Source of the DNA: Myxococcota bacterium
GTDB taxonomy: Bacteria > Myxococcota > XYA12-FULL-58-9 > JALHOP01
Direction of reading: 5' to 3'
Length of the DNA stretch: 64,000 nucleotides
Assembly: GCA_022842935.1 (NCBI GenBank)
Contig: JALHOP010000002.1
Span: 310,001-374,000, forward strand
The notes under the pieces were generated by a model. It made no database searches. It worked only from the letters and a program-made list of their open reading frames with translations, and had not been told where the DNA came from. Below, in pieces: positions 44,007 through 58,479 of the stretch. Each line of letters begins with the position of its first letter. The first letter of the stretch is position 1. The position numbers and the translations under genes were made by a program.

Positions 44007-45155
44007 TCATCTCGATCGCAGGCCCACCTTACGCCACCAAACGAGAACGCCCGTGACTGACAACACCGACACGACGAGGCCAAGCATCGTAATGAGTACG
44101 CGACCGCCCGTACCCATGACGCGCCCAGAATGCAGGGGCAGCTGGAGGTCGTGTACCCAATCTGTCGACGTCGTACCTCCCGCGAAGCGCGTCTCCAACA
44201 CCACTGGTCGGTCTCCAGCGACTGTCACCCAGGCGCCTGGGTATGCCTCCATCAAGTCGGCTGGGGTGTGGAGGCCAACCACGTACGCGTGTTTGTCGTG
44301 CACGATTCTGAGCCCACCAACGCGTACCGTTTCGCCAAACCTCTCCGCGACACGCGCCTTCGCCAGGTCCATCGCGGCGCTGGGCGAGATCGTGAAGTGC
44401 CCGTCACCTGTTGGCAGAGTCTCGAGCACGTCCGGCGTTAACGGTCCGAGCTTGTCGAGGATCGGCTCGAACACTTCCGCGTGCAACGCCATTGCGAACC
44501 CAGTAAACGCCATGACGGACAACATCGGCCAAACCCAAAGACCACTCGCACGGTGCAACTCATAGTTGCGTCGCGCCGGATGGCCGCGAAGTCGTGCTCC
44601 GAATGCACGCCGAATAGAGCGCAGGGTAAGCCTTGGCCACGCGAGCCGAAGACCGACGATGGTGTCGAAGAACCATACAATGGCGACGCAGCCCAGAAAG
44701 CGCCGTCCCAGTTCTCCAGCGCAGAGACTCTCGTGCAGCGCGTAGACGAAAGGAACGACCTCGAGCCGGCGCGTTGGCACGACGCCACGCCTTCTTGCAC
44801 CCGTGATCCGCTGGGTTGCGGGCTCCAAGAAGACCTGGTCGACCTCTGGCTCGACCTGACCTTCTCTCGGCGCAAGGTAGAGCTGCGCGACATGTTGCAC
44901 ATCGCGCGGAGCCGCTACATAGAAGACCTGGCTATGCGGCCACGTAGCCTCGACGCGCGCAATCCAGTCTTCAATTGCGTACTCGACCGGAGCGTTGGCG
45001 GCAGTGCGCGCGCGGAGCACGTCGGCGTTGAGCGCAACGTCGATCTCCTCGTGCCACGCGATGACCGCACCCGAAAGTCCAGCGGTGGCGAGGAAGAGCG
45101 CGGTGGCCAGCCCGGCGTAGCGATGCAGTCGCGCCCACGCGCCGCGTCGGGTCAC
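44007..45155 (-). CDS. PepSY-associated transmembrane protein
   Basis: 382 residues from GTG 45155, which overlaps the previous stop as GTGA; the frame extends to GTG 45182 but the coupled start is preferred. Four transmembrane helices at about 10-33, 150-175, 195-220 and 350-372 flank two periplasmic PepSY-like regions. Family marks are WARLHRYAGLATALFLATAGLSGAVIAWHEEID, YELHRASGLWVWPMLSVMAFTGFAMAL and WVHDLQLPLHSGRVMGTGGRV. Such proteins sit beside TonB-dependent receptors and are proposed ferric-siderophore reductases in the inner membrane. Here it is coupled to an MxcI-like lipoprotein opposite a receptor gene. Confidence 0.87.
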   Translation of the reverse strand: MTRRGAWARLHRYAGLATALFLATAGLSGAVIAWHEEIDVALNADVLRARTAANAPVEYAIEDWIARVEATWPHSQVFYVAAPRDVQHVAQLYLAPREGQVEPEVDQVFLEPATQRITGARRRGVVPTRRLEVVPFVYALHESLCAGELGRRFLGCVAIVWFFDTIVGLRLAWPRLTLRSIRRAFGARLRGHPARRNYELHRASGLWVWPMLSVMAFTGFAMALHAEVFEPILDKLGPLTPDVLETLPTGDGHFTISPSAAMDLAKARVAERFGETVRVGGLRIVHDKHAYVVGLHTPADLMEAYPGAWVTVAGDRPVVLETRFAGGTTSTDWVHDLQLPLHSGRVMGTGGRVLITMLGLVVSVLSVTGVLVWWRKVGLRSR

Positions 45156-46354
45156 GGTAGTGGTACGACCTGATATGCCCACCCAGTGACTTGGAACTGC
45201 GCGGTTGCAGTACCGTCCGAGCGAACATCATAGACAGTGGTCGTCGCATAGTCAGCCGACGTCACGAAGACGAGCGTTCGCTCGTCCACTTCGACCATGT
45301 AGTAGCCGGCAGCGATGAGCGGCAAACCCTGGACGGGAGCTGCGCTACTACCATCTTCGGCAACCCGAAAGAGACGCCAATATGCGCCTCCCGTGATGTC
45401 GGCTGGAGTCAATTCACGGTTCGGTAGCTCCTCGCGAGCGAGGACGGAGACGAGTGCACTGCCGTCGCGAAGCACCCGGTAAGCCACGGTGTCTTCGGTT
45501 CCAACCAACGATGCGAGGTCGATGCGCGCATCTTCCGTGAAGACGTTGGCCCCTGCGCGCAAGCGCAGCGTACAGGTCTTTGGTGCCGCGGCGTCGAGGG
45601 CAGGTGCTGCCGCCGCAAAGACCCAGTTCGAGAAAAACACGTCGCCGTTCGGGGCGACGCTTGCGACGTCGAGTCCCGGACACGGCGCATCGATGAGCTC
45701 GAGGAGTGTTCCGCTATCACGGTCATAGCGAGCGATCTGCGATTGCGCGTCAAACGCGTAATAGTCGGCGTCGCTCCAGTAGTAAGGCTGCAAGATGTCG
45801 CCGCCGCGAACCACCATCGACCGATCGTAGCCAGCACGCACCGGTTTCCCTCCTCGCACGACCTCTGGCCCCCCGGTTGCGACCTCGCCTTGAATCGTCA
45901 TGGCAGAGGGATTCCAAGCGATGCGGCGCGTCTGCTCGCGCTGCACGTAGGCGTGCTCGGCATCGACGAACACGTTCGTGTAAAGCGGAACGCTGGGAAG
46001 GCCGTAGGCGTCGAATGCCACGACGGTCTCGTCGGCTAAGCTGTCGTCGCTGCCGACGCTATAGCGTCGAACGCGTGGCGAGGACCCGTCGCTTACAAAC
46101 AATTCACTATCGCGTGCGGCAATGGTCGCGAATCCAGCGTACTCGCGCGCGCTCTCGAGACTCACCACGCCACCTTCTGGAACACTCGAGAGCACCCGCA
46201 CGTAGGTCGCCGGCGCGTCTCCCAAAATCGTGGTGCCTAACGCAAAGCGTCGAGCGAGCGGCAGTTCCGGGGTGCCTTCGGGGATCTCATCCGAGCCGCA
46301 AGCGCCGAGGAAACCGAAGAGAAAAAAAGACGTGAGACTGATGTTGCGAATCAT
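45152..46354 (-). CDS. MxcI-like exported lipoprotein
   Basis: 400 residues from ATG 46354; a TTG two codons earlier is the alternative. The lipoprotein signal ends in LGAC (about residue 19). The mature part is a beta-propeller-like protein of repeated short strands (FATIAARDSELFVSDGSSPRVRRYSV, GDVFFSNWVFAA, YMVEVDERTLVFVTS) and ends in VVPLP. Position and layout resemble MxcI/DUF4374 lipoproteins found beside TonB-dependent receptors in myxobacterial siderophore loci. It may bind a ferric complex outside the membrane. The name rests on context and general form, not on a diagnostic motif. Confidence 0.7.
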   Translation of the reverse strand: MIRNISLTSFFLFGFLGACGSDEIPEGTPELPLARRFALGTTILGDAPATYVRVLSSVPEGGVVSLESAREYAGFATIAARDSELFVSDGSSPRVRRYSVGSDDSLADETVVAFDAYGLPSVPLYTNVFVDAEHAYVQREQTRRIAWNPSAMTIQGEVATGGPEVVRGGKPVRAGYDRSMVVRGGDILQPYYWSDADYYAFDAQSQIARYDRDSGTLLELIDAPCPGLDVASVAPNGDVFFSNWVFAAAAPALDAAAPKTCTLRLRAGANVFTEDARIDLASLVGTEDTVAYRVLRDGSALVSVLAREELPNRELTPADITGGAYWRLFRVAEDGSSAAPVQGLPLIAAGYYMVEVDERTLVFVTSADYATTTVYDVRSDGTATAQFQVTGWAYQVVPLP

Positions 46355-46360
46355 TTGCAA
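46344..46360. promoter_or_regulatory. Candidate Fur-family box
   Basis: TTGCGAATCATTTGCAA is a 17-base imperfect palindrome, two eight-base arms matching at seven positions around a central C, with the AAT-N-ATT core typical of Fur-type boxes. It covers the start codon of the MxcI-like lipoprotein gene in the divergent spacer with the TonB-dependent receptor. Iron-dependent repression of both genes would fit. Inference only. Confidence 0.42.
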
Positions 46361-46362
46361 TA

Positions 46363-46374
46363 TCGTTTAAACGA
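46363..46374. promoter_or_regulatory. Perfect 12-bp palindrome TCGTTTAAACGA
   Basis: A perfect AT-centred palindrome lies two bases beyond the Fur-like box, between the divergent lipoprotein and receptor genes. In GC-rich DNA a 12-base palindrome with a TTTAAA core is unexpected by chance and could be a second operator or the overlapping -10 regions of divergent promoters. Confidence 0.35.
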
Positions 46375-46469
46375 AGACCGTGTGCACCGTCAACCGCATT
46401 GTCCGTCGATTGCGTCGCGAACCAGGGCAATCCGAACGGTATGCACGGGCGGATTCACCAACAAAAACA

Positions 46470-48923
46470 ATGCCCTTTTGCCGATTTGTGTTTTTGGCCA
46501 CGCTGCTTTGGCCGGCGCTCGTGGGGGCAGCTGAAGCAGAATCGTCGCCAGTTGGGCATCGCACCCCGCCGGTCGTCACGTACGAGGTGCCTCCAGTCTA
46601 TCCTGAGGGAGCTAGTGGCGACGCTGTCGTCGTCCTGCGCGTGACCATCAATGCCGATGGAAACGTCGCCGACGCCGTGATTGTGAGCTCGGCAGGACTT
46701 GCGTTCGACGAAGCTGCACGCGCCGCAGCACTTCAAACACGATTCCAACCTGCCCACGTCGACGGCGCACCCGTGACGGCTCGCATCAGCTATCGGATTA
46801 CTTTCGTCGAACCTCGAGCGGCCGAGGTCGAAGATCGTGCGACTGACGCGGGCGTGGCATTGGCAGAAGCGCCAACCGTACCTGCGGGCGACGTGAAACC
46901 GATCGACGTCACGATTCACGGTGCACGTCCCGAGGGGGAGCGTCTCAGCAGGTCCTCCGCTGCGGTCGATCGCATCGAGCTGCGCGAGGCGCGTCTAGAG
47001 TCGGCGGATCTCGGGGCGGTGCTCGCACGCGAGGCGGGTGTCTCGCTACAGTCTGGGGCGGGCTTGGGGAGCGCGTTTCGTCTGTCGCTCAACGGTTTGT
47101 ACGACGACCAGATCCGCGTGTTCGTCGACAGCGTCCCCATCGCGGCAAGCGAGTTCCCGAACGGGATCGCGAACGTCCCAGTCAACCTGCTCGAGCGCGT
47201 CGATGTCTATCGTGGTGTGGTGCCAATACGTTACGGCGTCGATGCTCTGGGCGGTATCGTCGACATGGTGCGACGTCCGCTGGAACGCACGCGACTTTCA
47301 GCGGGATATCAGGTCGGGTCGTTCGGAACACATCGATTCAACGTCGATGGCTCGTATTTCGATTCCGCTAGTGGTCTGTTTGCCGGCGGGTCCGCCTACG
47401 CGGATCTCGCTCGCAATGACTACTCAATCGATGTGGATGTGGCTGACCCCACCGGCGCCTTGACCGAGCAGAGGGTGCGTCGCTTTCACGATGCCTATCG
47501 CGCCCTTGGTGCAAGCCTTGCTGCCGGTATTCTCGATCGAAGCTGGGCGCGGCGGCTCGTCGTGCGAGCTTTCGCGTCGACCTTCGACAAGGACATCCAA
47601 AACAACGTCGTGATGACGGTGCCGTACGGCGCGGCGACATACGGTGGCCACACGTACGGCGCGTCGGTCCGCTATCAAAACGCGCTTTCGTCCGCCGTCG
47701 CGCTGGATGCAACGCTTGCATACGCGCGCAACCACGTCTGGCTGTTGGACATCACGCGCAACGTCTACGACTGGCGCGGCGAGGTCGTCAGCGAGCGAAC
47801 TTTGGGAGGTGAGATCCAAGGACGACCTATCGACCGGGCGCTCGACACCGATACCTTCTTGGCGCGTCCGACGATGAGCGTTCAGCTTTCACCAGAGCAG
47901 ACGCTGCGTCTCGTCGCTGCGCCGACATTCGCCACACGCACGGGAGTCGACCGCGACCGTCAACGCACTGGTGAACGTGACCCATTAGCGGCGCGAAGCA
48001 ACATCCTGACTCTGGTTAGCGGCATCGAGCACGAAGCTTCTTTGCGCGAAGATGCGGTGCGCAACGTCTTGTTCGTCAAAGACTACGTTTACGCGGCGAC
48101 AACCGACGAAGCCGTGCCAGGCGGCAGCGTTCGGCCGCTTTCACGGACAAGTCACGGCCTAGGCTTTGGTGACTCACTGCGGGTTGACGTATCGAGATGG
48201 CTCGCGCTCAAGGCATCCTACGAATACGCGCGACGCCTCCCCAGCGTCGACGAGGTCTTCGGCAATGGAGTGCTGGTGAGACCGAATCTGAGACTCGAGC
48301 CGGAGGTGAGTCACAACGTCAACGTAGGTCCTCGCGTTGAGCTGCACGGGGAGACGACTGGCGACCTCATGGTCGATGTCAGTGGCTTCATGCGCTTGGC
48401 GGATCAGCTCATCCTACTCCTCGGCGACGACGTTTCGTCGGTTTACGCAAACGTCTACCGCGCTCGAATCGCCGGCGTGGAAGGTACGGTCGAGTGGACC
48501 TCGCGCGAGAGCTTCCTGAGCGCAGGGATGTCGTTCACGGCGCAAGATGCACGCAACGCTTCAGCGGATGGAACGTTCGGCGCCTTCGATGGCGAGCGTC
48601 TCCCAAACCGCCCCTGGCTCCTTGCGAGCTGGAACGTGCGACTGCTTTGGCGGAACGTGGCGCATCACATCGATGTTTCGCCCTACTACTACGGGAGATA
48701 TGTGCATCGCTTCCCACGCTTTTGGGAGGGCCTCGGCGACACGCGGTTCAAGAGCATCATCCCGAGCCAACTCACCCACGATATCGGTGTGTCTTTCATC
48801 TCCGAGCTCGGGGGTACGCTCAGCATTGACCTGCGCAATGTCACCGACGCGCGCATCTTCGACTTTTTCGGAGTCCAGCGACCTGGGCGCGCGGTCTTTG
48901 CGAAATTGACGTTCGACCTCTGA
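46470..48923 (+). CDS. TonB-dependent receptor with N-terminal TonB domain (MxcH-like)
   Basis: 817 residues from ATG 46470; the open frame reaches back to 46380, but the ATG chosen gives a clean signal peptide (FVFLATLLWPALVGAAEA). No ribosome site is obvious. After the signal comes a complete TonB C-terminal domain (about 38-112: PPVYPEGASGDAVVVLRV ... AALQTRFQPAHVDGAPV), then a plug (about 150-265: ELREARLESADLGAVLAREAGVSLQS, PIRYGVDALGGIVDMVRR) and an outer-membrane beta-barrel to the end. A TonB-type domain at the start of a receptor resembles MxcH of myxobacterial siderophore clusters. Probably imports a ferric chelate. Confidence 0.87.
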   Translation: MPFCRFVFLATLLWPALVGAAEAESSPVGHRTPPVVTYEVPPVYPEGASGDAVVVLRVTINADGNVADAVIVSSAGLAFDEAARAAALQTRFQPAHVDGAPVTARISYRITFVEPRAAEVEDRATDAGVALAEAPTVPAGDVKPIDVTIHGARPEGERLSRSSAAVDRIELREARLESADLGAVLAREAGVSLQSGAGLGSAFRLSLNGLYDDQIRVFVDSVPIAASEFPNGIANVPVNLLERVDVYRGVVPIRYGVDALGGIVDMVRRPLERTRLSAGYQVGSFGTHRFNVDGSYFDSASGLFAGGSAYADLARNDYSIDVDVADPTGALTEQRVRRFHDAYRALGASLAAGILDRSWARRLVVRAFASTFDKDIQNNVVMTVPYGAATYGGHTYGASVRYQNALSSAVALDATLAYARNHVWLLDITRNVYDWRGEVVSERTLGGEIQGRPIDRALDTDTFLARPTMSVQLSPEQTLRLVAAPTFATRTGVDRDRQRTGERDPLAARSNILTLVSGIEHEASLREDAVRNVLFVKDYVYAATTDEAVPGGSVRPLSRTSHGLGFGDSLRVDVSRWLALKASYEYARRLPSVDEVFGNGVLVRPNLRLEPEVSHNVNVGPRVELHGETTGDLMVDVSGFMRLADQLILLLGDDVSSVYANVYRARIAGVEGTVEWTSRESFLSAGMSFTAQDARNASADGTFGAFDGERLPNRPWLLASWNVRLLWRNVAHHIDVSPYYYGRYVHRFPRFWEGLGDTRFKSIIPSQLTHDIGVSFISELGGTLSIDLRNVTDARIFDFFGVQRPGRAVFAKLTFDL

Positions 48924-48985
48924 AACGCGGAGCTCTCGACACAAGCGTCTGCGGGCCGAAGGTTACCCCTTTTCAATGTCGGCGC

Positions 48986-49744
48986 TCAGCGCTCGAATCG
49001 CACGCGTACACGAATCGTCGACGCCGCAGGTGCTCCGCTACGGTCAACAGCGGGTCGCCATCGTCTTTGCTCTGCACAGCGCAAAGCCGCGGTGCCGAAT
49101 CCAAAACCGGGGTCCTGCACAGCGGCGACATGCGTGAGCATGCCATGCGCATCGATTCGCACATCGAGCAGCACTACCGCGTGGTGAATGCCTGCATCGT
49201 CAGCCCCTCTTGGAAAAGGACAGTTCCACGCGCCGTCGTCCGCAAGACCAGCATCCAAGCCGCCGCGAGGGCTGCCTTCGCGTGTCGCGCTTCCGACTTT
49301 GGCATCTGGCGACCCGGATGCGTCGGAGCGCGAGGCTCCGCCGGCGCCGCCGTTCGTGAGCACGTCATCGAAGTCGACGACTTGGTCGTCCGTCATCGCG
49401 TCCATCGCGAGCCGCTCACGGTCAGCCGTGTTCGCTGCAGAGTCAGGCGATAGCGGCTTCGCCTGCGTGGAACGGCGAGAGTGCCGCGCCAAAGCTGACT
49501 CTTTCGTCGGCCCGCCTGCGGGTTCGGGTTTCGCCCTATTGGATGGCTGATACGGAATGTGCGCAATGTCGGAAACGAGCGCCACGCGTACTGGCGCATC
49601 ATTGCGAGGCCGCACGCCAAACCAAAACGCCACGCCAACGTGCCCGAGCAGCGACAGGCCCAAACACACGACCACGGTCTGCGGGTACGCTCCGCGACGC
49701 GGCAAGAAAGCCCCGCTTGCGAAGCGCTGGGAGGACGTCGGCAT
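48986..49744 (-). CDS. Energy transducer TonB
   Basis: 252 residues from ATG 49744 (a GTG one codon earlier is possible). Short cytoplasmic start, one inner-membrane helix (about 23-45: VVVCLGLSLLGHVGVAFWFGV), a disordered Ser/Ala/Gly-rich periplasmic linker (about 50-170) without the usual Pro-Lys repeats, and a C-terminal TonB-like domain with VLLDVRIDAHGMLTHVAAVQDPGFGFGTAALRCAEQRRWRPAVD. It lies convergent to the TonB-dependent receptor, 62 bases away, and should power it. TTGATAAT at 49766-49773 upstream is a weak Fur-like half-site. Confidence 0.8.
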   Translation of the reverse strand: MPTSSQRFASGAFLPRRGAYPQTVVVCLGLSLLGHVGVAFWFGVRPRNDAPVRVALVSDIAHIPYQPSNRAKPEPAGGPTKESALARHSRRSTQAKPLSPDSAANTADRERLAMDAMTDDQVVDFDDVLTNGGAGGASRSDASGSPDAKVGSATREGSPRGGLDAGLADDGAWNCPFPRGADDAGIHHAVVLLDVRIDAHGMLTHVAAVQDPGFGFGTAALRCAEQRRWRPAVDRSGAPAASTIRVRVRFER

Positions 49745-49829
49745 CACGTCGATGGCTTACGCTTGTTGATAATGCGTCGCAAGAGCAAAGCTGTAGGCGC
49801 TCAGCGCGCAGCCAAGAAACATGGCGAGT

Positions 49830-54904: not shown

Positions 54905-55138
54905 TTAGTTTGCGTCGTGCCGTCGCCAACGCGCGTGCATCGAACGCGCGTAGTCGGGCTCGAGCTGCGACAGACGCGCGACCACGAGATCGGCAAGGCC
55001 CGCGCAGCCGATCTGCGCGCGACCACGCGCGAGCACGGCCTGCGTGAGCGTCTCGACATCGTCGAAGCTAGTTGGATTCAAGCCCAGCGTGCGGCAGGCG
55101 CGAGCGATCGCGTCCGCATCTCGAAGCATACGGTCCAT
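54905..55138 (-). CDS. Small hypothetical protein, 77 aa
   Basis: Starts at ATG 55138 with AAGGGGG six bases upstream. The protein is helical (DRMLRDADAIARACRTLGLNPTSFDDVETLTQAVLARG, then GLADLVVARLSQLEPDYARSMHARWRR) with two cysteines and no export signal. No family is recognised. It is convergent with the PEP-mutase-family gene and divergent from the three-domain acyltransferase/ligase gene, 188 bases away. Confidence 0.62.
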   Translation of the reverse strand: MDRMLRDADAIARACRTLGLNPTSFDDVETLTQAVLARGRAQIGCAGLADLVVARLSQLEPDYARSMHARWRRHDAN

Positions 55139-55326
55139 GGTGGAGACCCCCTTGCGGTGAGCTTGGGTGTACGCACACCGATCGCGTTTTTCAATCGCGC
55201 AACGCGTCACCGAAACGCGCGCGGCGTGACGCAATGCGTGACCCGCAGGGCTTGGGCTTTTGGGCCGCGAAATCTTCATCCACCGAACAACGCAACGTGG
55301 AGCGCGCGCCCCCGATAACGCCGCCG

Positions 55327-58300
55327 ATGAACCAGCGAATCGATGATCTGGCCCGTGTTGCGACGCGCACTCCCCTCCAAACAGCCGAGCTCCCCGTCAG
55401 CAAAGGAGAGCTGGTCGCCAATGCGCCGCGCCCCGTCGTGCAGAGCGGTCCCTTCAAGGGTCTCGACGCCATCGACGTCGAGGCAGCGACGCTCAACCGC
55501 AAGAAGTGGATTGGTATCGACCCGGTGACGAAAAACGAGCGGCCGCCGACCGTGGCGGGCTCGCTTCTGCGACGGCTGCTCACCGGTGTCGCACGCGGTA
55601 TCTTCGCGACACGCTACGACGTGTCGGTCACGAAAGACGACAAGGTCTCCGAAGACGTGGCACTGCGCGGCCCCATCAAGGGCGCGCTGGTTCTGCTCAC
55701 TCCCCATACCGGTCTCGACGACCCGGCGGTCGTGTACGCGAGGATCGCGCCGTTCTTGCCGTGTCGTCCGGTGGGAACCGAGGGCTTGTTCACGCAGCCG
55801 GGTCTCAAGGACATCATGCGCTCGATCAGCGCGCTGCCGGTGCCTATCAGTGACAGTCCGCTCGGAGTCAAAGACGAGATCAATCTACTCGCGGTCCAGA
55901 TTACGAGCGCCATGCGGCGCGGCGAAAACGTCGGTCTGCACCCGAGCGGCCGTCTCATCCACGGCAACAACGAGCTCATCGGATCAAACTCGCTCGTGCA
56001 GCGCGTCCTCGAGCTCATGCCCGAGTCGCGCCTCATCAGCGTCAACACGATCGGCATGGGCGGCAGTGAGTTCACCCGCGCGTTCAACGGCGGCAAGCAG
56101 GCCAACATGGGCAAAGGAGCCAAAGCGCTCCTCGACGCGGCCAAGCACAACCTGACCCACCCGTGGCAGACGGGCTTTCGCCTCTTCAAAGCGCGCCGCG
56201 AGGTCGACATCGAGGTCCGCGACGTCACCGAGACGTTCAAGGCGGGACGCTCGACGGTCGAGCAGAACCGAACCCTCGAGGCGCTTGCCGACCGACCGCA
56301 CCCGGTGTTTGGCGGCCCCAATCCCAACATTCACGTGCCCGCGCGCGGCGATGACCGCTCCGGCGTACACGTGTACACTCTAGAAAAGACAGCAGGGCCG
56401 TCGGCCAGCAACGTCGTCATCGACCCGGCCGCGATCGCGACCATCGAAGACCAGGTGCGCGCACACATCGCACGCCTCGCCAAGACGGACCCGTCGAAGC
56501 TCGAGCACACGCACAGGCTCAGCGACTTGAACCTCGACAGCCTCATGCTCAACAACGACGTCATGTTGTGGGTGAACAAGACGTTCGACCGCAACTTCAT
56601 CACCCCCGAGGGCTTCGTCACGGTGCAAGACGTGATTGACGGCGCCACGGGCGTGCTCTCACCGATCGCCGGTATCGAGTTCCGCGAGGTGAGCGAGGCC
56701 TTCAAGCTGCAAGCAGCGAGCGGCGGCCTGTCCGCGATACCGGCCGAAGCACGCAGCACCGTCGACGCCTTCATCAAGCAGGTGCTCGCGAACCCCAAGC
56801 GTGTCATCGCGGTCGACGAGGTGATCGGCGAATACACCTACGAAGATCTCGCGGTCCTCGTTTCCTTGATTCGGCCGGACATCGCCAAGATCCAAGGAAA
56901 TCGCGTCGGATTGCTCTTCCCGAACTCGGTCATGAGCACCGCCGTGCAACTCGCGCTCGCCTTCGAAGGCAAGTCGTGCGCGATGCTCAACGCACAGTGG
57001 AACGACCAGCAAGGGACCTCGGCCATGAATCTCGCCGGGGTCGACGCCATCCTGACTGCTCAGGGCGCAGTTCGCGCTCTCAAGGGAAAAAAGGAGCGCG
57101 AAGACGCGGAGCGCGTGCAGAAGGGTCAGCTCACCCAGGCGCAGGTCGACAGCGACCCCTCCAATACGCCGTTCCCGAGCATCGAAGAGAAGTTCCTCGT
57201 GGTCGACAACTACCTGCGCGAGTTGCCGCTCCTGCGCGTGCTGGCCGACGGCAAGCTCCGCAAGGGCAAGATGCTCCGCCGGCTCGTCGCTGACGCGACC
57301 AAGCTCGATAGCGCGGGCGAGATCGCGGCGCTCTTCACCAGCGGCTCGAGCGGCAACCCCAAGGGTATCGCCTACCGCCACGAGCAGGTCATGCAGAGCG
57401 CCAAAGCCCTGGCCAAAGCGTTCGACCTACAGAAGAACGACGTGCTCCTGCATCTCGCACCGAGCTTCCATCTCGTCGGCTTCACGGCCGGCAACATGGC
57501 GACGATGATGGGCGTCGCCTCGGTCAACGTGCCGAACCCACAGCTTGCCGCCATAGCGGCCGAGCTCGGCAAGATCCGTCAGGCGACCATCGTCGTCGGG
57601 ACCCCCTCGTTGCTCAACGCTCTCGCCAAGGCAGCGGGCACGAGTGGACTGTCGCACTTGAAACGCATTGTCGTCGGCGCCGAGGCATTGACCCCGGAGA
57701 TCGAGGCCAACCTGCGCAAGGCAGCACCCTCGGCACAGATTATCCAGGGCTACGGCATGACCGAGACGGGCGTGACGTTCGTCGAGCGCTTCGACCCCAA
57801 GAACCCGAGCGACCGCAGCATCGGTGAGCCGCTCGAAGGGGTCGACTACAAGATCGTCAGCTCCGATGATCACACGCGCGAAGTCGCGCAGGGCGAGCCG
57901 GGCATCCTTGTGGTGCGCGGCCCCGCCGTTGTGACGAGTGAGCGTGGCTTCATGGGCAAGGTGCCGAGTGACGCCTTCGCGACCGTCGGCGGCGTCGAAT
58001 ACTTCGTCACCGGCGACATCGTGCGCGATAAGGTCGTGAAAGACCCGGCTGGGGTCGACCGCAAGGTCGTCCACTTCATGGGGCGCGCGAGCCGCTTCTC
58101 GAAGATCAACGGCGAGCGCATCGGCCACGACGTCGTCGAAGCGCCCATTGCGGCGCTCATGCCCGAGCCGCGCGACGGCGGCCTGCGCGCTTTCGTGGTC
58201 GAAGGCGTGGAGAACAGCGCTGGTCAACCGACGCTCGTCGCCTACGTGGTACCAGGCCGCGATAGCGGAGGTAAGCCGGTCGACGCAGAGGGCAGGTCGC

Positions 58301-58479
58301 TCACATACGAGCGTGTGCGCGACACCTTGTCGTCGACGTTCCGCGGCGACCCGAAGTTCAACGTCGCCGAGGTCCGCTTGGTGAACAAGATCGAGCTGCT
58401 TGGCACCGGCAAGGTCGCGCTTTCGCTCTACCAGAAGGCGGGCAAGCTCGCGCACGACGGTGAGGTCCTCAAGCTGTGA
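55327..58479 (+). CDS. Acyltransferase-ACP-AMP ligase fusion
   Basis: 1050 residues from ATG 55327 (an in-frame ATG at 55234 would add 31 residues). Three parts: a PlsC-like acyltransferase (about 80-300) with H127-TGLD-D132 as the H-x4-D motif and HPSGR (205-209) in place of the usual PEG block; an acyl carrier domain (about 365-450) with phosphopantetheine serine S405 in LNLDSLM; and an AMP-forming ligase (about 470-1040) with the P-loop TSGSSGNPKG (671-680), GYGMTETG (808-815), a TGD block and LGTGK near the end. Acyl loading by the ligase, carriage on the ACP and transfer by the acyltransferase would fit. Similar in logic to E. coli Aas, which lacks the ACP. Confidence 0.83.
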   Translation: MNQRIDDLARVATRTPLQTAELPVSKGELVANAPRPVVQSGPFKGLDAIDVEAATLNRKKWIGIDPVTKNERPPTVAGSLLRRLLTGVARGIFATRYDVSVTKDDKVSEDVALRGPIKGALVLLTPHTGLDDPAVVYARIAPFLPCRPVGTEGLFTQPGLKDIMRSISALPVPISDSPLGVKDEINLLAVQITSAMRRGENVGLHPSGRLIHGNNELIGSNSLVQRVLELMPESRLISVNTIGMGGSEFTRAFNGGKQANMGKGAKALLDAAKHNLTHPWQTGFRLFKARREVDIEVRDVTETFKAGRSTVEQNRTLEALADRPHPVFGGPNPNIHVPARGDDRSGVHVYTLEKTAGPSASNVVIDPAAIATIEDQVRAHIARLAKTDPSKLEHTHRLSDLNLDSLMLNNDVMLWVNKTFDRNFITPEGFVTVQDVIDGATGVLSPIAGIEFREVSEAFKLQAASGGLSAIPAEARSTVDAFIKQVLANPKRVIAVDEVIGEYTYEDLAVLVSLIRPDIAKIQGNRVGLLFPNSVMSTAVQLALAFEGKSCAMLNAQWNDQQGTSAMNLAGVDAILTAQGAVRALKGKKEREDAERVQKGQLTQAQVDSDPSNTPFPSIEEKFLVVDNYLRELPLLRVLADGKLRKGKMLRRLVADATKLDSAGEIAALFTSGSSGNPKGIAYRHEQVMQSAKALAKAFDLQKNDVLLHLAPSFHLVGFTAGNMATMMGVASVNVPNPQLAAIAAELGKIRQATIVVGTPSLLNALAKAAGTSGLSHLKRIVVGAEALTPEIEANLRKAAPSAQIIQGYGMTETGVTFVERFDPKNPSDRSIGEPLEGVDYKIVSSDDHTREVAQGEPGILVVRGPAVVTSERGFMGKVPSDAFATVGGVEYFVTGDIVRDKVVKDPAGVDRKVVHFMGRASRFSKINGERIGHDVVEAPIAALMPEPRDGGLRAFVVEGVENSAGQPTLVAYVVPGRDSGGKPVDAEGRSLTYERVRDTLSSTFRGDPKFNVAEVRLVNKIELLGTGKVALSLYQKAGKLAHDGEVLKL

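Follow-up and report, generated by a model that had tools for sequence, protein, structure and literature searches.

The analysed window is a 64-kb stretch of myxobacterial DNA, and a check of its open reading frames verified four genes at 44007-49744. As described in the original prediction, these encode a PepSY membrane protein and an MxcI-like lipoprotein, a divergent receptor and a convergent TonB. Rfam and tRNA scans of the whole window gave no match. The features of the locus are as follows.

44007-45182, minus strand: PepSY_TM inner-membrane protein, a FoxB/XusC-like putative ferrisiderophore reductase (Pfam PF03929, E=9.6e-51)
45152-46360, minus strand: MxcI-like lipoprotein, XusB-type beta-propeller; likely start ATG 46354; lipobox FLGAC
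46345-46359, no strand assigned: TGCGAATCATTTGCA, a palindromic box of the Fur type that overlaps the probable mxcI start codon and lies about 110 bp upstream of the likely receptor start
46380-48923, plus strand: MxcH/XusA-like TonB-dependent receptor (NCBIfam MxcH, XusA profile); likely start ATG 46470
46566-46805, plus strand: receptor N-terminal domain of the TonB C-terminal type (Pfam TonB_C, E=1.2e-12; AF2 and fold match)
46899-46922, plus strand: putative TonB box PIDVTIHG at the linker-plug junction, its position kept in most aligned receptors whichever N-terminal module they carry
48986-49747, minus strand: stand-alone TonB that belongs to a cysteine-bearing group of myxobacterial TonBs (Pfam TonB_C, E=1.6e-6), convergent to the receptor

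The previously noted GTGA overlap between the PepSY start and the mxcI stop is present at 45155-45152, and the PepSY start is therefore more likely GTG 45155. The domain matches, the gene pairing and the Fur-type box all exceed chance.

The original prediction overlooked the identity of the lipoprotein, which is a XusB-type beta-propeller. A lipoprotein profile built without Bacteroidota rows matched XusB (E=1.3e-9). Furthermore, its AF2 model (pLDDT 89.6; three Bacteroidota rows in the underlying alignment) matched XusB with a Z score of 29.7, the next non-XusB entry being at 23.2. Thus, profile, Z score and lipobox together define a XusB-type propeller lipoprotein, although the Pfam scan found no DUF4374 match in it and its identity to XusB is only 13-14%. 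The DUF4374 search of the organism's own genome also gave no match, but the controls were equally silent, and that search is uninformative.

The receptor carries Plug (E=5.8e-12) and barrel (E=1.7e-17) domains behind its TonB_C domain. Its profile, built without Bacteroidota rows, reached XusA with an E value of 1.5e-118 and 400 bits, with BtuB next at 69 bits, which marks it as a XusA-type receptor. Against the NCBIfam model of MxcH (NF038079) it scored 916.5 bits over positions 7 to 791 of 792, short of the curated cut-off of 925; it is MxcH-like and is not filed as MxcH. A plasmid search with the receptor returned 24 records, all below 60% identity, one of them covering at least 80% of the receptor; a Bacteroidota record has a DUF4374 gene adjoining the receptor. 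The PepSY protein, a putative inner-membrane reductase by its homology to PF03929 and 7abw, had FoxB of Pseudomonas aeruginosa (7abw) as its sole PDB match (E=9.5e-49), a full-length homology in which at least four histidines are aligned. FoxB acts alongside FoxA, whereas the PepSY protein of the window adjoins an MxcHI pair.

The available part of PMC13142918 describes XusABC as a xenosiderophore-piracy system of Bacteroides. In it, likewise, a receptor (XusA, 9gbc), a DUF4374-type seven-bladed propeller lipoprotein (XusB, 9hqe/9hqk) and a PepSY inner-membrane protein are encoded together. XusABC forms one operon, whereas the genes here are divergent and have a separate TonB alongside. Also, XusA begins with a carboxypeptidase-like domain, according to the same part of PMC13142918, where our receptor has a TonB domain. 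The hiuABC system of Caulobacter similarly combines a receptor with a FoxB-like PepSY protein for foreign siderophores; it is presented in the accessible text of PMC12424826 without a propeller lipoprotein and with a small membrane protein, HiuC, in its stead. Taken together, we consider it likely that the locus is a XusABC-type ferric-chelate scavenging system in a myxobacterium.

The scavenging of a foreign chelate, proposed originally from the lack of siderophore synthesis genes at the locus, thus gains the homology to XusA, XusB and FoxB, a Fur-type box and three siderophore markers that all fall short of their cut-offs. Searches of the genome found no match for IucA/C or for Lys/Orn N-hydroxylase, and the best match to DHB-AMP ligase, at 194.7 bits, stayed far below its cut-off of 723.6; by this last search, the DHB siderophore genes of a myxochelin system were not found. 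Since these three pathway markers are absent or below cut-off, scavenging is the best reading. Rather unlikely, by comparison, is an uptake system for a siderophore that the cell itself produces from genes located elsewhere, like MxcHI for myxochelin in Myxococcaceae. An NRPS/PKS cluster on contig C9 speaks for it, and in an assembly 97% complete in 46 contigs a siderophore gene could be missing; however, the marker searches count against it, and no biosynthetic gene adjoins the locus. The resemblance to MxcH/MxcI of the myxochelin cluster lies in the model match, including the TonB domain, and in the pairing with MxcI, whereas here no myxochelin-type genes are seen, a PepSY gene is present and the receptor scores just under the cut-off.

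A search for similar loci with and without myxochelin genes also bears on this point: among 83 related receptor ORFs, 19 have a DHB-AMP ligase in their locus, which counts in favor of the own-siderophore reading. MxcI was found within 4 kb of 76 of the 83 (one locus without it, L101, stops at a contig end) and PepSY within 6 kb of 37. PepSY and the DHB ligase occur together in one locus (Fisher p=5e-5 for all 83, 3e-4 for the 52 with full flanks), a statistic that we did not take as proof because the states track clades and independent pairs did not bear it out. Flavobacterium records occur among the related loci. An apparent separate TonB at L124 was an artefact of a receptor spread over two frames.

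In the available part of PMC13142918, hookless short propellers are taken to suggest hydroxamates. Because the propellers of the DHB-AMP-ligase loci also belong to the short class (377-406 residues counted from the domain start), we did not use this length rule and dropped the substrate call based on it. Such lipoproteins beside siderophore genes work for the cell's own siderophore, and the lipoprotein family is therefore not restricted to piracy.

The metal is indicated indirectly to be iron. An exact TGCGAATCATTTGCA occurs once in the window (0.01 expected), where it separates the divergent genes, and twice in the genome. With up to one mismatch, a Fur-type box lies upstream of 33 of 80 receptors, the window included (0.4 expected), a count that is not independent because the upstream regions include near-copies. 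One-mismatch sites within this genome are weak, numbering 18 against 8 for the reversed control. Three near-match sites have no iron gene beside them; the four ORFs there belong to no family, Radical_SAM, octopine dehydrogenase and no family. The second exact genome box precedes a metal-efflux operon for an OEP and a CzcB/NccB-family adaptor. The regulator may therefore sense another metal, and with it the locus could take up another metal chelate, e.g., of copper or zinc. Moreover, more than 75% of CrtA-family copper receptor loci have a PepSY_TM gene after the receptor, according to the accessible part of PMC12914433. We regard uptake of another metal chelate as improbable, as the receptor and the lipoprotein match XusA and XusB, the related loci have Fur-like boxes and often siderophore genes too, and the copper operon studied in PMC12914433 is, in that part of the source, described without a Fur site.

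The original prediction drew attention to two TonB-type domains. Both the receptor-borne and the stand-alone one are present, but they do not set this locus apart: this genome has at least five receptors with an N-terminal TonB domain, and 53 of the 83 relatives carry one as well. Judged from such domain matches, the module is common in the genome and the phylum. TonB_C had at least 13 matches in the genome, 12 of them above cut-off, a lower bound since the window's stand-alone TonB, above cut-off in the window scan, is not among them. A survey of 34,893 receptors did not name the architecture. In a tree of about 90 columns, the window TonB clusters (support 99) with eight more stand-alone TonBs from related loci, and no receptor domain falls inside this group of nine, so that a derivation of the receptor domain from its neighbor is unsupported.

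The domain is an optional periplasmic module, with CarboxypepD_reg or nothing in the same slot in relatives. CarboxypepD_reg labels came from a home-made query; a Pfam rescan of 20 of the 23 receptors labelled "none" found CarboxypepD_reg in six, four above cut-off and two, L103 and L146, below, and no missed TonB_C. The counts of "none" and CarboxypepD_reg are therefore rough, as are the tallies of domain changes along the tree.

The domain itself scored 48.5 bits for PF03544 (cut-off 24.6), and the fold matches of its AF2 model are TonB domains (9dc4_T, Z 11.8; 6i97_D, Z 11.4). Of the roles considered, we tentatively favor one in bringing the receptor together with its TonB partner or in selecting that partner. 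The slot might then be a partner-selection module, whose TonB version would bind the C-terminal domain of a transducer and steer one chosen TonB, out of the several in the cell, to the adjacent box. In SusC/Oar receptors, CarboxypepD_reg likewise precedes the TonB box as an extra periplasmic domain, with an Ig-like instead of a TonB fold, and loss of the N-terminal extension of Bt1763 abolished growth on levan, as reported in the available part of PMC7782687. It is doubtful that the domain sits on its own TonB box and competes with the transducer in cis. Its TonB fold, some 30 residues ahead of the box, would suit this idea, which recalls the competitor or relay first envisaged; yet AF2 of domain, linker and box gave no docking, no strand at the box (pLDDT <50) and disorder in both linker and box, a monomer prediction lacking the transducer and weak evidence either way. 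An STN-like signaling domain is very improbable: the position equals that of STN domains in transducers, but Pfam finds TonB_C and TonB_2 before the plug with no STN (PF07660) up to E 1, the fold matches are TonB domains, and no sigma or anti-sigma family matched in any of the four genes.

Returning to the scavenging system, its reading draws on homology, predicted folds for two parts, gene pairing and the Fur-type box; for the best explanation, we infer the substrate, the surface exposure, the order of events and the metal. The MxcI propeller, on the cell surface, would capture a foreign ferric siderophore and would pass it on to the MxcH receptor. TonB, the neighboring one or another, would pull the putative TonB box, drawing the chelate into the periplasm, where the FoxB-like PepSY protein would reduce it and free the iron. 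A Fur-family repressor would control the divergent genes. The bacterium thus probably steals iron from the carriers of other microbes, resembling the gut system of Bacteroides.

The natural swap between CarboxypepD_reg and TonB domains before the box, within one receptor family, offers a test bed for the role of N-terminal extensions. If partner selection holds true, XusA and SusC would use their N-terminal domains for that job as well. We found no paper connecting MxcHI with XusAB in the literature searched. The present analysis connects the myxobacterial MxcHI pair with XusAB, a system of solved structure, and leads us to predict siderophore-capturing surface lipoproteins in predatory myxobacteria.

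The locus consists of the following genes.

44007-45182, minus strand: PepSY_TM protein, from open reading frame and domain scan
45152-46360, minus strand: MxcI-like lipoprotein, likely start ATG 46354, lipobox FLGAC
46380-48923, plus strand: divergent TonB-dependent receptor, likely start ATG 46470, upstream of a signal-peptide-like stretch
48986-49747, minus strand: convergent stand-alone TonB, from open reading frame and domain scan

The GTGA coupling of the first two genes was confirmed, a PepSY GTG start overlapping the lipoprotein stop at 45155-45152. One flank of the set carries genes for an adenine deaminase and a purine-type permease, the opposite flank a gene for a beta-helix protein, with no visible tie to either. 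Elsewhere in the window, a 1135-aa ORF (55072-58479) weakly resembles an AMP ligase, scoring 46.9 bits against TIGR02275 over 57310-58029.

The receptor scored 916.5 bits over 7-791 of 792 against the NCBIfam model of MxcH, the myxochelin-cluster receptor, below the cut-off of 925; the model itself includes the N-terminal TonB domain. A profile of 17 receptors, every one from the window's own phylum, matched XusA (9gbc_A), the receptor of the Bacteroides xenosiderophore-piracy system XusABC, with E=1.5e-118 and 400 bits, the runner-up being BtuB with 69 bits. The window lipoprotein had no match in a Pfam scan, and 10 of its 22 aligned relatives matched DUF4374 (E up to 1; best 1e-41). Lipoprotein profiles matched XusB with E=2e-23 with Bacteroidota rows and 1.3e-9 without them. 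The AF2 model of the lipoprotein (pLDDT 89.6, pTM 0.85), whose underlying alignment contained three Bacteroidota rows, has Bacteroides fragilis XusB as its best match, both by Foldseek (E=1.6e-16) and in a separate fold comparison (Z 29.7 with an rmsd of 3.2 across 339 residues), where BtuG2 follows as the best non-XusB structure (Z 23.2). Despite this fold match, identity to XusB is only 13-14%. The sole PDB match of the PepSY protein (E up to 1) was 7abw, entitled 'PepSY domain-containing protein' (E=9.5e-49; 1.1e-83 by profile search), with at least four histidines aligned. The available text of PMC12424826 ties 7ABW to FoxB and to FoxB's heme-binding histidines. The genome's second PepSY_TM gene (C8:27842-29311; L179 5843-7312) adjoins a di-haem oxidoreductase (DHOR) gene. 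All three XusABC parts are present by homology, the lipoprotein also by predicted fold.

The original prediction gave the receptor its own N-terminal TonB C-terminal domain, and this is borne out by Pfam TonB_C (E=1.2e-12) and by structure. Since the best fold matches all belong to TonB C-terminal regions (6i97_D at E=2.2e-4; in fold comparison, 9dc4_T Z 11.8 and 6i97_D Z 11.4), an STN-like fold is not seen. When domain, linker and TonB box were modelled together with AF2 (27 rows), the TonB fold was predicted, with block-mean pLDDT 94-98 across most of the domain; the box strand was not (pLDDT <50 from residue 98). A TonB-box-like stretch is kept in most aligned receptor rows.

This architecture is widespread. 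At least 12 TonB_C matches of the genome score above cut-off. Five of these lie in receptor-sized frames, all with TonB_C plus Plug by Pfam; three have a barrel that passes the cut-off and two a barrel match that falls short of it. The four frames outside the window are on contigs C5, C7 (two) and C20 (L077, L076, L078, L079), the L079 receptor having a weak CarboxypepD_reg match between TonB_C and Plug. Across 83 receptors, a home-made query assigned TonB_C alone to 48, TonB_C with CarboxypepD_reg to 5, CarboxypepD_reg to 7 and neither to 23, Pfam reassigning 6/20 of this last group to CarboxypepD_reg. On a quick receptor tree with several long branches and rough labels, TonB_C presence changes 16 times. 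The stand-alone TonBs form a group apart from the receptor domains. Those of the window (48986-49747), L082, L089, L099, L100, L110, L143, L156 and L157 have a motif resembling WxCPWP in common, together with another conserved cysteine, and a disulphide is possible.

We found no description of this architecture in print. The accessible portions of PMC11658791 and PMC12204202 describe no such fusion, and TonB_C is not among the domains named in the accessible part of a survey that groups 34,893 receptors by their N-terminal regions into five architectures made up of CarboxypepD_reg, STN and AMIN (PMC6434023), which may be an effect of survey design. As far as the text of PMC7782687 was available, levan supported no growth at 24 h when Bt1763 lacked its N-terminal extension, and this extension was suggested to possibly confer specificity for TonB orthologues.

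Above-cut-off MxcH matches occur in 63/195 genomes of the phylum; the remaining seven genomes of the window's order had none, their best matches being weak (E 3.5e-18 to 6.6e-27). When genome contigs were scanned with the receptor alignment, 152 of 198 pattern matches were confirmed and 80 were kept; the neighbourhood set comprised 83 receptor ORFs, window included, many loci being cut by contig ends. MxcI lies within 4 kb in 76/83 and PepSY within 6 kb in 37/83. The complete four-part set, separate TonB included, is co-located at the window locus and in L082 (Hyalangium versicolor), L100 and, from an earlier locus set, L058 and L075; L058 and L082, each 172104 bases long, are very probably the same contig. 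Three Flavobacterium records have receptor, lipoprotein and PepSY side by side. Some loci hold several MxcI-like propeller lipoproteins: three in L095 (12169-16022), three in L133 (2778-6770) and five in L123 (588-15987), where a single receptor may be served by several capture lids that differ in specificity. On the receptor tree, a record labelled Comamonas sp. KCTC 72670 twice (L090, L108) clusters with Myxococcus and its relatives, and is probably a mislabelled or mixed genome.

Does the locus serve a siderophore of its own? DHB-AMP ligase, a siderophore-pathway marker, was in the locus for 19/83 receptor ORFs, and together with PepSY in 1/83, many loci being cut by contig ends. All 57 of 195 genomes with an above-cut-off ligase also have above-cut-off MxcH; six have MxcH without the ligase, and the window's genome, its receptor just under cut-off, resembles these. 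Its top ligase match reached 194.7 bits against a cut-off of 723.6; IucA/C and Lys/Orn N-hydroxylase had no match in the genome, both searches detecting their controls. An NRPS/PKS cluster with an aminotransferase domain lies at C9:214261-230396 (L080, L081). Judged by the ligase marker, this is not a myxochelin locus.

Applied after the window site had already been inspected, the pattern TGNNAATNATTNNCA, the Fur 7-1-7 template, occurs at a single place in the window, between the two divergently transcribed genes (0.01 expected). Exact sites stand upstream of 7/80 receptors (0.0 expected) and sites with at most one mismatch upstream of 33/80 (0.4 expected), window included, the 80 regions including near-copies. 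The genome has two exact sites versus none for a reversed control. The other (C20:24045-24059; L178 5046-5060) precedes an operon of an outer-membrane efflux protein (OEP) and an adaptor under the CzcB/NccB model cut-off and over the general RND adaptor cut-off; at one mismatch there are 18 sites versus 8 for the control. The efflux genes behind the second exact box and these one-mismatch counts weaken a simple iron reading. According to the text available of PMC11388931, an M. xanthus furA mutant overproduces myxochelins.

Among the papers listed from literature outside most subscription journals, none linked MxcH/MxcI, or Myxococcota, to XusA or DUF4374; in one such listing, the best-ranked 10 of 1,649 papers, the XusABC paper alone carried two of the terms. 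The available text of the XusABC paper (PMC13142918) has no word beginning 'myxo'. The most likely use of the locus would be piracy of foreign ferric chelates.
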